64,000 bases of DNA from positions 1-64,000 of the forward strand of contig NZ_JAPZSK010000014.1 of the NCBI RefSeq assembly GCF_027531815.1, in the 5' to 3' direction. The number at the start of each line of letters is the position of its first letter. Within the stretch, counting starts at the first letter, position 1. Below the pieces are notes generated by a model. It worked only from the letters and a program-made list of their open reading frames with translations, had not been told where the DNA came from and did no database searches. The stretch comes from Gemmatimonas sp. GTDB lineage: Bacteria; Gemmatimonadota; Gemmatimonadetes; Gemmatimonadales; Gemmatimonadaceae. Both the position numbers and the translations under genes were made by a program. Shown piece after piece: positions 14,952 to 33,145 of the stretch.

Positions 14952-15074
14952 GAGTTCGCGTAAGTTGCAGATATCTTGTCCCGCCCCGGTCCGGATCGCT
15001 AGTCACAACGCGTGCGGTCCGAGCCGTCGGCGGACGTGTACCCCCGGTGCATCCAACGACATACTCGCCGACCG

Positions 15075-16256
15075 ATGTCCGAGACCCGCGTCGTCAGTCC
15101 AACTGCTCCCACCTCGGTCACGAACACCGACGCCCTCGCGGCCGGTACCCTCGAGGAGGTCGATCTCGAGGCCATGCTCGGCACCGGCACCGCCATGTGG
15201 GCCGTCGTGTTCGCCGGCGGGATCGGCACGCGTTTCTGGCCACTCAGCACGCCGCGCCGGCCCAAGCAGGTGCTGGCCCTCGTGAACGAACGGCCGCTCA
15301 TCGCCGATACCGTGGCGCGTCTGGCCCCCCTGGTGCCCGCCGAACGGGTGCTTGTGGTGACGAGCGCCGACATCGCCGATGCGCTGCACGAGGCCATTCC
15401 CGAGGTACCGCGCAGCAACCTGCTCATCGAGCCGCGGCCGCTCGGTACCGCGGCCGCGCTGGCGTGGGGGGCGCAGGAAGTCTCCCGACGGGCGGGACCG
15501 GACACGGTGTTTGTCGCGCTGCACGCCGACCTGGCCGTGGGGTACCCCGAGGTGCTGCGCGACAGTCTCCGCCGCGCCGCCGCCATTGCCGCGGCCGACA
15601 GTGCGCTGGTGGCCCTCGGCGCCCGTCCCACCCGCGCCGAAACCGGCTTCGGCTATCTCCAGCCCGGCATGCCGCTCGACCCCCTGCAGTCGCGCGCCGA
15701 AGGTGGTGCCTGCCGCGTGGAGCATTTCGTGGAGAAACCGGGCGCGGCGTTGGCCGACGTGCTCATCGAGCGCGGCGCACTCTGGAATACGGGCATCTTC
15801 GTGTGGCGCGCCCGCGTGGTCCTGGACGAACTCGACCGGCACACCGCCGAGGTGCGGCACGGCCTGCCACTGCTCGCCGCCGGGGCCATGGAGCAATTCG
15901 CCGAGCTGGTGTCGAGCGTCTCCATCGACCGTGGCCTGCTCGAACGTTCTCCCAACGTGGTGGTGCTCCCCGCCGACATGGAGTGGGACGACGTCGGCAC
16001 CTGGGCATCACTGCGCCGCGTCCGCGAACTCGATGATACCGGCAACGGCGTCATGGGCCAGGTGCACTGCGTCGACTGCAGCGGCAATGTCATTCATGCC
16101 GACGGCTGCTGCGTGGTGGCCTATGGCATCAGCGGTATGATCGTGGTCAGCATCGACGGACTCACTTTCGTCACCACGCAGGATCGCGCCACCGAACTGG
16201 GGCCGCTGCTGAACGCCCTGCCGGGGAGCCTGCGCTTCAACCCGGGTGGGCACTGA
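15075..16256 (+). CDS. manC: Mannose-1-phosphate guanylyltransferase
   Basis: It makes GDP-mannose from mannose-1-phosphate and GTP for polysaccharide or glycan synthesis. Of 393 residues, the first ~40 are a non-conserved leader. The nucleotidyltransferase domain then starts with MWAVVFAGGIGTRFWPLSTPRRPKQVL (signature G-G-x-G-T-R-x-W-P-x-S and P-K-Q), with FVEKPG near 225 and WNTGIFVWRA near 245. The C-terminal cupin isomerase domain of bifunctional enzymes is absent. ATG 15075 is chosen; an ATG at 15195 would begin exactly at the domain. Its last codons and stop recur 313 bp downstream as part of a tandem duplication. Confidence 0.85.
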   Translation: MSETRVVSPTAPTSVTNTDALAAGTLEEVDLEAMLGTGTAMWAVVFAGGIGTRFWPLSTPRRPKQVLALVNERPLIADTVARLAPLVPAERVLVVTSADIADALHEAIPEVPRSNLLIEPRPLGTAAALAWGAQEVSRRAGPDTVFVALHADLAVGYPEVLRDSLRRAAAIAAADSALVALGARPTRAETGFGYLQPGMPLDPLQSRAEGGACRVEHFVEKPGAALADVLIERGALWNTGIFVWRARVVLDELDRHTAEVRHGLPLLAAGAMEQFAELVSSVSIDRGLLERSPNVVVLPADMEWDDVGTWASLRRVRELDDTGNGVMGQVHCVDCSGNVIHADGCCVVAYGISGMIVVSIDGLTFVTTQDRATELGPLLNALPGSLRFNPGGH

Positions 16257-16278
16257 GGGCAGACAGGCCGGATTGCTC

Positions 16279-16348
16279 GGAGGTCGGACGCCGGAGGTCG
16301 GATGTCGGACCCCGGAGGTCGGACGCCGGAGGTCGGATGTCGGACCCC
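16279..16348. repeat. Two tandem copies of a 35-bp unit
   Basis: The unit begins GGAGGTCGGACGCCGGAGG and ends TCGGACCCC. It is present at 16279-16313 and again at 16314-16348, and is absent from the downstream duplicate, so array length varies between copies. Confidence 0.8.
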
Positions 16349-16354
16349 GGACGT

Positions 16355-16520
16355 CGGAGGTCGGACGCCGGAGGTCGGATCCATGCCGGAGGTCGGAGTC
16401 CCGATACCGCGTTCGGAGATCGGAAGCCGGAGGGGCGAATGCCGCACCCCCTCCGACCTCGGACCTCCGAACGCCGTGTCCCATCTCGGACATCCGGCAT
16501 GCATCCGACGTCCGACCTCC
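16355..16520. repeat. Long hairpin element, copy 1
   Basis: The left arm (16355-16435) and right arm (16446-16520) are imperfect inverted repeats of about 75-80 bp that could fold into a long stem with a loop of roughly ten bases. Shared blocks include GGAGGTCGGACG, CATGCCGGA and GCGTTCGGAG. A central block is unpaired. The arms match the arms of the four-helix-bundle element at 32.5 kb at about three positions in four, by eye. Confidence 0.7.
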
Positions 16521-16590
16521 GGTCATCCGATACATCCGATACATCCGATACATCCCGGGTCGGCACTGAGGGCAGACAGGCCGGATTGCT

Positions 16591-16756
16591 CGGAGGTCGG
16601 ACGCCGGAGGTCGGATCCATGCCGGAGGTCGGAGTCCCGATACCGCGTTCGGAGATCGGAAGTCGGAGGGGTGAATGACGCATACCCTCCGACCTCGGAC
16701 CTCCGAACGCCGTGTCCCATCTCGGACATCCGGCATGCATCCGACGTCCGACCTCC
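16591..16756. repeat. Long hairpin element, copy 2
   Basis: The left arm (16591-16672) and right arm (16684-16756) are nearly identical to copy 1, and the loop is about 11 bases (around GAATGACGCAT). The two copies differ at a few positions near the loop (AAGCCGGAGGGG against AAGTCGGAGGGG). It is non-coding. Confidence 0.7.
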
Positions 16757-16799
16757 GGTCATCCGATACATCCGACATCCGATGCAGCCGGGCGTCGGC

Positions 16800-17588
16800 T
16801 CACTCTCCCCGAAACACCGGCGTCCGCTTCTCATGGAAGGCCATCATCGCCTCCCGCACGTCCCCGCTGGCAAAGCAGGTGCGAATGTGCGTCAGCTCCT
16901 CGCGCAGCTGCTGATCGAGTGATGCGTCGGCGCTGCCCAGCAGCAGCCGTTTGGTCAGCGCGAACGCCAGCGGCGGCCCGGCCGCCAGACGCGCCGCGTA
17001 GGCGGCCACGTTGGCGGCGAACTCGTCGGCCGCCCACACGTGGCTTACCAACCCCATGCGTTCCGCCTCGTCGGCGCTGATGTCGCGGCCGGTGAGCACG
17101 AGGTCAGCGGCGCGGGCGTGTCCCACCAGCCTCGGCAGGAACCAGGTCACGCCGGCATCGGGGGAGAGCCCGCGCCGCACGTAGCCGGCGGTGCATGAGG
17201 CGGTCGCGCTCATCACGCGCAGATCGCAGGCCAGCATGAGACCGAAGCCGGCGCCGGCTGCCACCCCATTCACCGCGGCGAGCACCGGTTTCTCGCATTG
17301 CGTCACGGCGTGCACCCACTCGCCGACCCAGTGGTACGGATCGAGCCGCTCGGCACGCGACGCGCCAGGCGTGGCCGGCTCACCCAGATCGAGCCCCGCG
17401 CAGAACCCGCGACCCGCACCCGTGATCACCACCACCCGCACCGCATCGTCACGCGCCGCCTCGCGCAGCACGCGAGGCAGCGCCACCGCCAACCCGGGAT
17501 TCACCGCATTCAGCTTCTCCGGCCGATCGAGCGTGATGGTGCGCACGCCGGCGTCGGTGGTGATCTGCAAAGGCTGGTTGTTGTGCAT
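16800..17588 (-). CDS. Enoyl-CoA hydratase/isomerase family protein (PaaG-like)
   Basis: This crotonase-fold protein of 262 residues has the oxyanion-hole segments ITGAGRGFCAGLDLG (near 57) and AAVNGVAAGAGFGLMLACD (near 107). The segment GLSPDAGVTWFLPRLVG near 140 carries an aspartate where PaaG-type isomerases have their single catalytic acid, rather than the two glutamates of true hydratases; an isomerase role in phenylacetate or fatty-acid degradation is therefore more likely than hydration. No other phenylacetate genes are adjacent. ATG 17588 is chosen because the upstream extension is not conserved. Its stop lies directly against the repeat region. Confidence 0.8.
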   Translation of the reverse strand: MHNNQPLQITTDAGVRTITLDRPEKLNAVNPGLAVALPRVLREAARDDAVRVVVITGAGRGFCAGLDLGEPATPGASRAERLDPYHWVGEWVHAVTQCEKPVLAAVNGVAAGAGFGLMLACDLRVMSATASCTAGYVRRGLSPDAGVTWFLPRLVGHARAADLVLTGRDISADEAERMGLVSHVWAADEFAANVAAYAARLAAGPPLAFALTKRLLLGSADASLDQQLREELTHIRTCFASGDVREAMMAFHEKRTPVFRGE

Positions 17589-17794
17589 GCGTGTGAAGGG
17601 GTCGTGGTGAGGAGGGGCGAAACGCGTTCCGCCATCAGTTCTAGCGCTCGGTCTGCGATTCTGCACGCCAGTTGTCTGCAATCACGAGGGAATTGCGCGC
17701 CCCCCACTACCATCAGCGCGGGTCCGCTCGCTAGATCACACCGCATCTCCCCGTGGTACTGATCGTCCCTGCCTGATTCGTCTGCTCCCGCCCC

Positions 17795-31784: not shown

Positions 31785-32486
31785 ATGCGCATGCTGCGAT
31801 TTCTGCCCCCGCTGCTGCTGCTCCTGGTCTCCACCCGCTCGGTGGAGGCACAGGTCGTGCCCACCGACAGCGCCGCGGTGATCTACGCCTACATCCAGGG
31901 CGCCGACACCATTGCCTTTGAAGGCGTGCGGCACGAGTCCGCCTCGCTGCGCGGCGTGCTCGTTGCCCCCGGTCGCCCGCGGCTGGTCTGGGAGCATCAG
32001 CTCGCCGAGGGCGCGCCCACGTTGCTCAGTCTGGCGATCTATCCCCCCGGCGGCGCGGGGAGCATCCTCCCGCTGCAGGAAACCGACTTTCTCACGGTGG
32101 GGGACATCGTCTTGGTCACCACCACCAGGCAGGGCGAGCGCACGGCTCAGCCGCTCCCCACCACCCCGGGCGCCATCCCCTTGCTGGGGCGCTCGATGCT
32201 GCACACCGCCTACCTGGCGTGGTTCGCCCAGCAGGCGCACCGCGATTCCCTCACCCTGTTCATCACCTCTTCGGGGAAGACCGTGCACGCCGCCACGACC
32301 GTACGCGGCGAACAGATTTCGCTCATGGTGGACGGCCTCGAGATCATCACCACCTGGAGCGAGGGCACGCTGCTGACCGTGTCCGTCCCGTCGCAGGCGC
32401 TGAAGGTTGTGCGGCTTGCTCGTCAGGCGGGGGAGGACGCTGGGGGGCCGGTGGCGGCCGGTGGCGGACGTTCGGACGTCGGATGA
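31785..32486 (+). CDS. Secreted protein, paralogue of the hydrolase N-terminal domain
   Basis: This 233-residue protein has a signal peptide (MLRFLPPLLLLLVSTRSVEAQ). The mature part aligns with the N-terminal domain of the hydrolase at 29574: VIYAYIQGADTIAFE against [13 protein letters not shown], and ALKVVRL near the end against NLRAVRA. The hydrolase domain is absent. The last residues (GGRSDVG) and the stop are encoded by the left arm of the inverted-repeat element, so the natural 3' end may have been replaced; the protein could be a standalone domain or a truncated hydrolase. Function unknown. Confidence 0.7.
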   Translation: MRMLRFLPPLLLLLVSTRSVEAQVVPTDSAAVIYAYIQGADTIAFEGVRHESASLRGVLVAPGRPRLVWEHQLAEGAPTLLSLAIYPPGGAGSILPLQETDFLTVGDIVLVTTTRQGERTAQPLPTTPGAIPLLGRSMLHTAYLAWFAQQAHRDSLTLFITSSGKTVHAATTVRGEQISLMVDGLEIITTWSEGTLLTVSVPSQALKVVRLARQAGEDAGGPVAAGGGRSDVG

Positions 32487-32570
32487 TCGGATGCGTCGGA
32501 GGTCGGACGTCGGATGAATGCCCGAAATCGGAGTCGGGAAACGGCTTTCGGAGGTCGGAGGTCGGATGCT
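32468..32570. repeat. Left arm of the inverted-repeat element
   Basis: It runs from ACGTTCGGACGTCGGATG to AGGTCGGATGCT. The inner 54 bases (from AATGCCCGAAATCGG inward) are perfectly complementary to the right arm. The stop codon of the gene at 31785 lies within it. Confidence 0.9.
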
Positions 32571-32646
32571 CCCCCTCGTGCGTCGGGGTGATGACGCGGG
32601 CGTGGATTCGGTGAGGGGGAATCGTGCGCGTGCTCTATCGTGGGGC

Positions 32647-33030
32647 ATGCCGCACAATCCCTATCGACTGCTGGTGGTGCAGCGCGCCGATGCGCTCACG
32701 GTGGTGGTTCACGCGTACGCGTCGCGGCACCGTCGAAGGCTCGCGGATTTCTGGCCGGGACTGCGCAATCAGCTCGTGCGCGCGTCGGCCTCGATTTCGC
32801 TCAACCTCGGTGAAGCCTGCGGATACCATTCGCCGCCGCGTGTCATTGCATTCCTCGAGACGGCCATTGGCTCATGCAACGAAGTCGAGCGCATTCTCAG
32901 CCTCTGTGCCCGACTCGGAGTGCACGATCCCCGCCTGTCATTCATCGTCAGCGAAATCGCTGGTGTACGCATGATGCTCTACGGCCTCCGCCGCCACCTG
33001 AAGCAGTCATCCCCTCCGCCGCCCTCGTAG
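32647..33030 (+). CDS. Four-helix-bundle protein (S23/IVP family)
   Basis: The 127-residue cytoplasmic protein fits the four-helix-bundle family encoded in 23S rRNA intervening sequences: an arginine-rich SRHRRRLADFWPGLRNQLVRASASISLNLGEACGY stretch (residues about 27-61), then RVIAFLETAIGSCNEVERILSL and helix four, IVSEIAGVRMMLYGLRRHLK. The I-x-L-N-L-x-E-A motif is the usual marker. These proteins are thought to form basic oligomers that bind nucleic acid; the accessory protein Avd of diversity-generating retroelements shares the fold. The first ATG in a conserved position is used; an in-frame ATG at 32518 lies inside the left arm. TAG overlaps the right arm. Confidence 0.8.
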   Translation: MPHNPYRLLVVQRADALTVVVHAYASRHRRRLADFWPGLRNQLVRASASISLNLGEACGYHSPPRVIAFLETAIGSCNEVERILSLCARLGVHDPRLSFIVSEIAGVRMMLYGLRRHLKQSSPPPPS

Positions 33031-33145
33031 CATCCGACCTCCGACCTCCGAAAGCCGTTTCCCGACTCCGATTTCGGGCATTTATCCGACATCCGACATC
33101 GGACATCCGACCTCCGACGCATCCGATTATCCGACGTCCGACCGT
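33029..33145. repeat. Right arm of the inverted-repeat element
   Basis: It is the reverse complement of 32468-32570 with an extra 14 bp of CCGACATC-type repeat. From 33002 onward the metalloprotease frame is open through this arm but has no ATG, GTG or TTG before 33200. Confidence 0.9.

Follow-up and report, generated by a model that had tools for sequence, protein, structure and literature searches.

In the window analysed here, a 64,000-nt stretch of the Gemmatimonas sp. genome G000, two hairpins without a gene stand 3′ of manC, and an element with similar arms around a gene lies at about 32.5 kb. How did the hairpins come to stand behind manC, and do they belong to the same family as that element?

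Hairpins and a tandem duplication 3′ of manC

The region contains the following features.

15012..16256, + strand: manC-like nucleotidyltransferase gene (PF00483, E 2.3e-31; 98% identical in the congeneric sister genome G014)
16242..16554, no strand: tandem duplication unit 1, 313 nt
16277..16353, + strand: TCGGA-type heptad block, 77 nt = 11 x 7 nt, in unit 1 only
16355..16520, no strand: gene-free hairpin 1 (inverted repeat, folding and family alignment)
16555..16790, no strand: tandem duplication unit 2, 236 nt
16555..16569, + strand: copy of the manC tail, CCGGGTCGGCACTGA (PGRH-stop), at the start of unit 2
16591..16756, no strand: gene-free hairpin 2 (inverted repeat, folding and family alignment)
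16800..17681, - strand: enoyl-CoA hydratase gene, convergent right neighbour (PF00378, E 3.4e-59)

Both hairpins sit in the 546-nt gap between manC and the convergent hydratase gene. The initial annotation had described them as about 165 bp long with loops of about ten bases, and both were confirmed as imperfect inverted repeats with arms of 73-74 nt. In hairpin 1, 16362-16435 faces 16448-16521 (74 nt, 78% complementary, 12 nt between the arms), and in hairpin 2, 16598-16670 faces 16685-16757 (73 nt, 79% complementary, 14 nt between). Folding energies as RNA are -108.5 and -111.7 kcal/mol, respectively. The motif GGAGGTCGGA, allowing at most one mismatch, has 38 matches in the window against 6.16 expected, a number reached by none of 100 shuffles. 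The arm at 16277-16436 has a lag-7 self-match excess of 0.32, that is, the 7-nt period of heptameric repeats.

Each duplication unit opens with the final codons of manC, the last 15 nt of the gene (16242-16256) being the left part of the duplicated unit. Units 1 and 2 are identical at 226 of 234 aligned positions, with a few unaligned nucleotides near the end, and their difference in size is 77 nt, or 11 heptads. The tail copy in unit 2 reads PGRH-stop, which is the manC C terminus of two relatives (L073 and L074); the functional manC of G000 now ends in PGGH. CCGGG is present at both ends of the duplicated segment, as expected for a duplication through microhomology, a step that we infer. It had been proposed that a segment of about 313 bp including the manC end was duplicated in place after insertion. 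The length holds for unit 1, and the PGRH-stop copy, the alignment of the units and the empty sites described below support a tandem duplication in place that would have copied the last manC codons after the hairpin had inserted.

manC is present in all 30 genomes of the genus, and its 3′ flank was compared at one locus per genome in the 29 genomes besides G000, as had been suggested for finding empty sites. From the manC stop to the convergent hydratase stop there are 6-84 nt in 18 relatives compared with 546 nt in G000; one locus (L081) gave a partial match at -14. The hydratase gene lies on the other strand in two relatives, five others had no hydratase match beside manC, the end of the manC orthologue falls outside the locus compared in L096 and L098, and the G014 locus ends within the hairpin 3′ of manC. 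Among the relatives compared, G014 alone has a TCGGA hairpin behind manC; two of its contigs, C54 and C12, end within this hairpin, where their sequences overlap and are identical. Since the hairpin follows manC in G014 too, its insertion, as judged by this comparison, predates the separation of G000 and G014. No target-site duplication was recognised by eye at manC, the one site at which empty sites were compared. In three relatives (L077, L079 and L092), other short tandem repeats directly follow manC, as if this gap gathers repeats.

In the history that we propose, the stop codons of manC and the hydratase gene were originally a short distance apart, and one hairpin would have inserted between them in the common ancestor of G000 and G014. 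A later tandem duplication in place, probably via CCGGG microhomology, would have taken the manC tail along, and the gain or loss of eleven heptads would have left the two units 77 nt apart in size.

A dispersed family and its gene-carrying member

The element at 32.5 kb consists of three features.

32468..32570, + strand: 5′ arm of the gene-carrying relative (arm comparison)
32647..33030, + strand: four-helix-bundle (4HB) gene, PF05635 (S23/IVP), 127 aa, E 4.3e-14
33029..33145, - strand: 3′ arm of the gene-carrying relative (arm comparison)

The gene scores 53.1 bits against the PF05635 profile, for which the curated cut-off is 33.8. An ORF directly follows the element (32468-33145); its 5′ end may be displaced, and its product resembles a DUF5117-type metalloprotease.

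The hairpin arms match those of the element at 55/68 to 60/70 and 56/72 to 60/77 positions (76-86%), in rough agreement with the three in four estimated initially. When the spacers between TCGGA units were shuffled 1000 times for each of eight arm comparisons, the 3′ arms of both hairpins compared with the 5′ arm of the element scored above all 1000 shuffles; the other six comparisons were reached by 18-29 of 1000. Likeness through a simple repeat alone had been named as one finding that would overturn the kinship. Hairpins were extracted from G000 and G014 (28, of which two incomplete ones were left out), and the 26 aligned share a core that is not a simple repeat, approximately ATGCCGGA..TC.GA....GGAAACGGCGTTCGGA.

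A scan of G000 located the family in 45 matched pieces at 15 loci. Of the nine PF05635 genes in the genome, a single one, at 32.6 kb, coincides with a TCGGA locus; the other 14 loci are without any PF05635 gene. The proposal that one family exists both as solo hairpins and as a gene-carrying copy is thus supported: by these comparisons, the two manC hairpins belong to the gene-free part of a dispersed family, and its single gene-carrying copy in G000 would be the 32.5-kb element. Across 30 genomes the family is strong in two, with 42 pieces in G000 and 45 in G014; G012 has one 34-nt match. G000 and G014 share the same 4HB protein (81% identical) inside TCGGA arms. Compared with the hairpin loci of G014, 11 of the 15 loci agree on both flanks (manC on two contigs), two on one flank and two on neither, so the spread of the family, on this evidence, is mostly older than the G000/G014 split; no movement event was seen among these loci. 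A candidate G000-only insertion at L047 was rejected: nothing in G014 matches its right flank over a long stretch, so that no empty site could be read.

Some gene-free copies have the loop TGCGGCC in common, and in 12 gene-free loops the likeness to the 4HB gene never exceeded that of shuffles at the 1/200 level. An origin by internal deletion of a 4HB copy was rejected because no remnant was found in these loops; the common loop and the lack of 4HB likeness together suggest that gene-free hairpins are copied as such.

Four-helix-bundle genes between heptad arms

PF05635 genes occur in 28 of the 30 congeneric genomes (110 matches). For 56 distinct 4HB genes, a part of these matches, 600 nt upstream were compared with 650 nt downstream; one gene was dropped for a short flank. 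Arms with a score of at least 40 surround 42 of the remaining 55 genes, including eight of the nine in G000, compared with 0/26 manC controls (maximum 34) and 0/275 shuffles (maximum 32); the other 13 of the 55 have no arms above the cut. A null made of cross-locus pairs was set aside because related arms contaminated it (maximum 546). The arms usually differ between elements. Their mean lag-7 excess is 0.124; the lag-7 signal reaches p<=0.05 in 24/42 arms versus 2/82 control stretches of flank, and 20/42 versus 1/82 have their highest self-match at lag 7. Among 13 named loci outside the genus, arms of at least 40 surround four (Acidobacteriales, Flavobacterium, Acidobacteria and Terriglobia) and none of the three from Gemmatimonadota. 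Seven or 14 is the best lag in five of eight arms from outside the genus. With the query used, no 4HB relatives were found in plasmids and viral contigs.

Gene-free copies also exist in three more arm families of G000 and in one of a relative. The L032 arms recur without a PF05635 gene at C6:607010-607559, C1:163801 and C1:171383, and also at seven contig ends. G006 has five PF05635 genes, and arms of the L103 type recur at several places elsewhere on its contigs; in G008, a fragmented assembly, they lie on eight contigs, none of which is either of the two with its PF05635 genes. Forty stretches of 20 kb from G000 (800 kb, 18.6% of the genome) contained nine inverted repeats above the cut. Two resemble the L037 arms (scores 64 and 91), one the L034 arms (71) and one, weakly, the L036 arms (33), one is a short ordinary hairpin, and four form a GCAGACG heptad family with no recognised 4HB partner in G000, as follows.

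L241:7317-7539: GCAGACG-heptad inverted repeat
L250:2348-2547: GCAGACG-heptad inverted repeat
L251:14512-14706: GCAGACG-heptad inverted repeat
L267:1102-1239: GCAGACG-heptad inverted repeat

The host itself could be the source of such arms, with slippage building heptad arrays, template switching inverting them and 4HB genes merely surviving there without a role. The 77-nt change of exactly 11 heptads, the microhomology at the duplication joins and the orphan heptad families fit this explanation, as does the known over-representation of bacterial heptamers, for which excerpts of PMC4692102 and PMC4679880 mention no protein partner. However, slippage does not explain a non-repetitive core common to 26 hairpins at unrelated sites, nor why such arms enclose 42/55 4HB genes but 0/26 manC genes. 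We give host-driven expansion roughly one chance in four.

Somewhat less probable is that the hairpins are functional 3′-UTR structures, kept for transcript termination or for processing at RNase III sites, and that the 4HB protein binds their RNA. A number of hairpins directly adjoin stop codons, and few, as far as approximate neighbour calls go, lie between divergent genes; in Coxiella, according to excerpts of PMC4990558, RNase III processes the stem of the IVS. Insertions, however, are also tolerated after stop codons, and 18 relatives with manC and the hydratase gene in the same arrangement lack a hairpin at this site. Stem pairs are 94.6% standard, which would suit a maintained structure, but the shuffle maximum is 94.5% and four pairs changed on both sides, covariation hardly above shuffles.

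Transposition in trans of a true MITE or REPIN by a Y1/HUH or other transposase is improbable: G000 and G014 have one Y1_Tnp gene each, but G006 (99% complete) has gene-free hairpins of a 4HB family at several loci and no Y1_Tnp gene (PF01797), and this domain occurs in 8/30 genomes compared with 28/30 for PF05635.

Related systems and a putative partner protein

The closest architecture is that of REPINs and RAYTs, in which, according to excerpts of PMC3116915, every type of repeat is found next to a RAYT gene of its own, present in single copy. As there, hairpins are dispersed in intergenic DNA, gene-free copies stand elsewhere and one repeat type accompanies each single-copy protein gene; inverted doublets as extragenic hairpins were found in G000 (neighbour calls approximate). 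By contrast, the protein here is a PF05635 four-helix bundle and not an HUH enzyme, its gene lies inside the arms, and the hairpins are about 165 nt long with heptad arms and number about 15 loci, not hundreds. No Y1/HUH transposase stands beside the repeats in G000. Because this defining enzyme is missing, the system may work like REPIN/RAYT but is not an instance of it.

Mobility enzymes were searched in the 30 genomes with two profiles, PF01797 and PF00078. The single PF01797 gene of G000 (C6:700538) is not among the hairpin loci. Reverse transcriptases (PF00078), which a DGR accessory protein (Avd) system would require, are absent from G000 and present in 3/30 genomes, and none was detected in G006; at 3/30 and 8/30 genomes, reverse transcriptase and Y1 transposase were rejected as common movers. 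Rfam gave only hairpin-like matches far below gathering scores. The initial term MITE-like stands insofar as these are short, gene-free inverted repeats sharing their ends with a gene-carrying relative, the 4HB element. It goes too far in implying movement by a transposase, since neither profile revealed a linked one and 11/15 loci occupy the same sites in G014; no target-site duplication was recognised, as judged at manC only.

The earlier parallel with rRNA intervening sequences likewise holds as an analogy. In Coxiella, an S23 gene lies between inverted arms in 23S rRNA, and an IVS has been proposed to be mobile (excerpts of PMC4990558); both systems thus place a four-helix gene of the S23 type between inverted terminal arms. 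The window hairpins, however, lie between manC and the hydratase gene and outside rRNA, the arms are heptad arrays, and gene-free copies are spread through intergenic DNA. Heptameric repeats have been described as GGGAATC in Xanthomonas (PMC4692102), with 70 and 75 convergent pairs in two genomes, and as TAACTGA in Beggiatoaceae (PMC4679880). In the excerpts of these papers, too, the unit is 7 nt and mostly intergenic. The arms reported here enclose a 4HB gene or resemble arms that do, whereas those excerpts mention no protein partner, and the terms S23, 23S and four-helix are absent from the main text of PMC4692102 as searched.

S23/IVP four-helix-bundle genes are common, and we know of no function for them. 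The explanation that we prefer to host-driven expansion, 3′-UTR function or transposition in trans is a REPIN-like hairpin population with degenerate-heptad arms and a 4HB partner; as a whole, we consider it as an even call. Sequence comparison indicates that a hairpin inserted, that it was duplicated in place, that length changed by whole heptads, that the hairpins form a family and that 4HB genes are associated with arms; an action of the 4HB protein on the hairpins would be a further step, and so would their movement. Each family would have one stationary 4HB gene, whose product may bind the nucleic acid of hairpins with its own type of arm and help them persist or be copied to other intergenic sites, a role like that proposed for RAYT with REPINs, though the product would not be a transposase. 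Nucleic-acid binding is hinted at by a predicted pI above 8 in 48/52 4HB proteins. The entries of two solved relatives, 2gsc (XCC0516, presumably from Xanthomonas) and 2rld, contain five chains each.

Family-specific arms, mostly basic proteins and these two structures lend indirect support to a 4HB partner. The GCAGACG orphans, the G008 arms apart from the PF05635 contigs, the 13/55 genes without arms, weak covariation and the lack of independent protein-arm co-evolution speak against one. No useful co-evolution was found among non-syntenic 4HB pairs: a Mantel r of 0.27 includes the near-identical L113/L114, and in 770 such pairs the arms are unrelated except for L113/L114 and one borderline pair at score 40. 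An apparent following of 4HB clade by arm type, seen by eye, was discarded, as it mostly reflects the same locus in different genomes.

It is possible, if rather doubtful, that PF05635 proteins in general serve heptad-repeat hairpins in bacteria as their dedicated partners. The two would then form a widespread counterpart of REPIN/RAYT that works without a transposase and links S23/IVP genes with heptameric repeats, perhaps including the Xanthomonas GGGAATC pairs. Searches of open-licence papers turned up none that connects dispersed repeats with PF05635 genes. No maker of heptameric repeats is known; should every 4HB gene serve a hairpin family of its own, both the repeats and the S23/IVP genes become testable, and bacterial genomes would have a second, non-transposase way of keeping hairpin populations.

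Seven G000 contig ends (L058-L064) lie in or near GTCGGGG-type arms, which indicates that this family breaks the assembly. Beside the L033 4HB gene, a 170-nt hairpin unit is repeated 4.9 times in tandem (L067:4088-4934, contig C1 of G000), so tandem hairpin duplication is not peculiar to manC. As in the manC case, the unit seems to include a degenerate form of the upstream gene's end.
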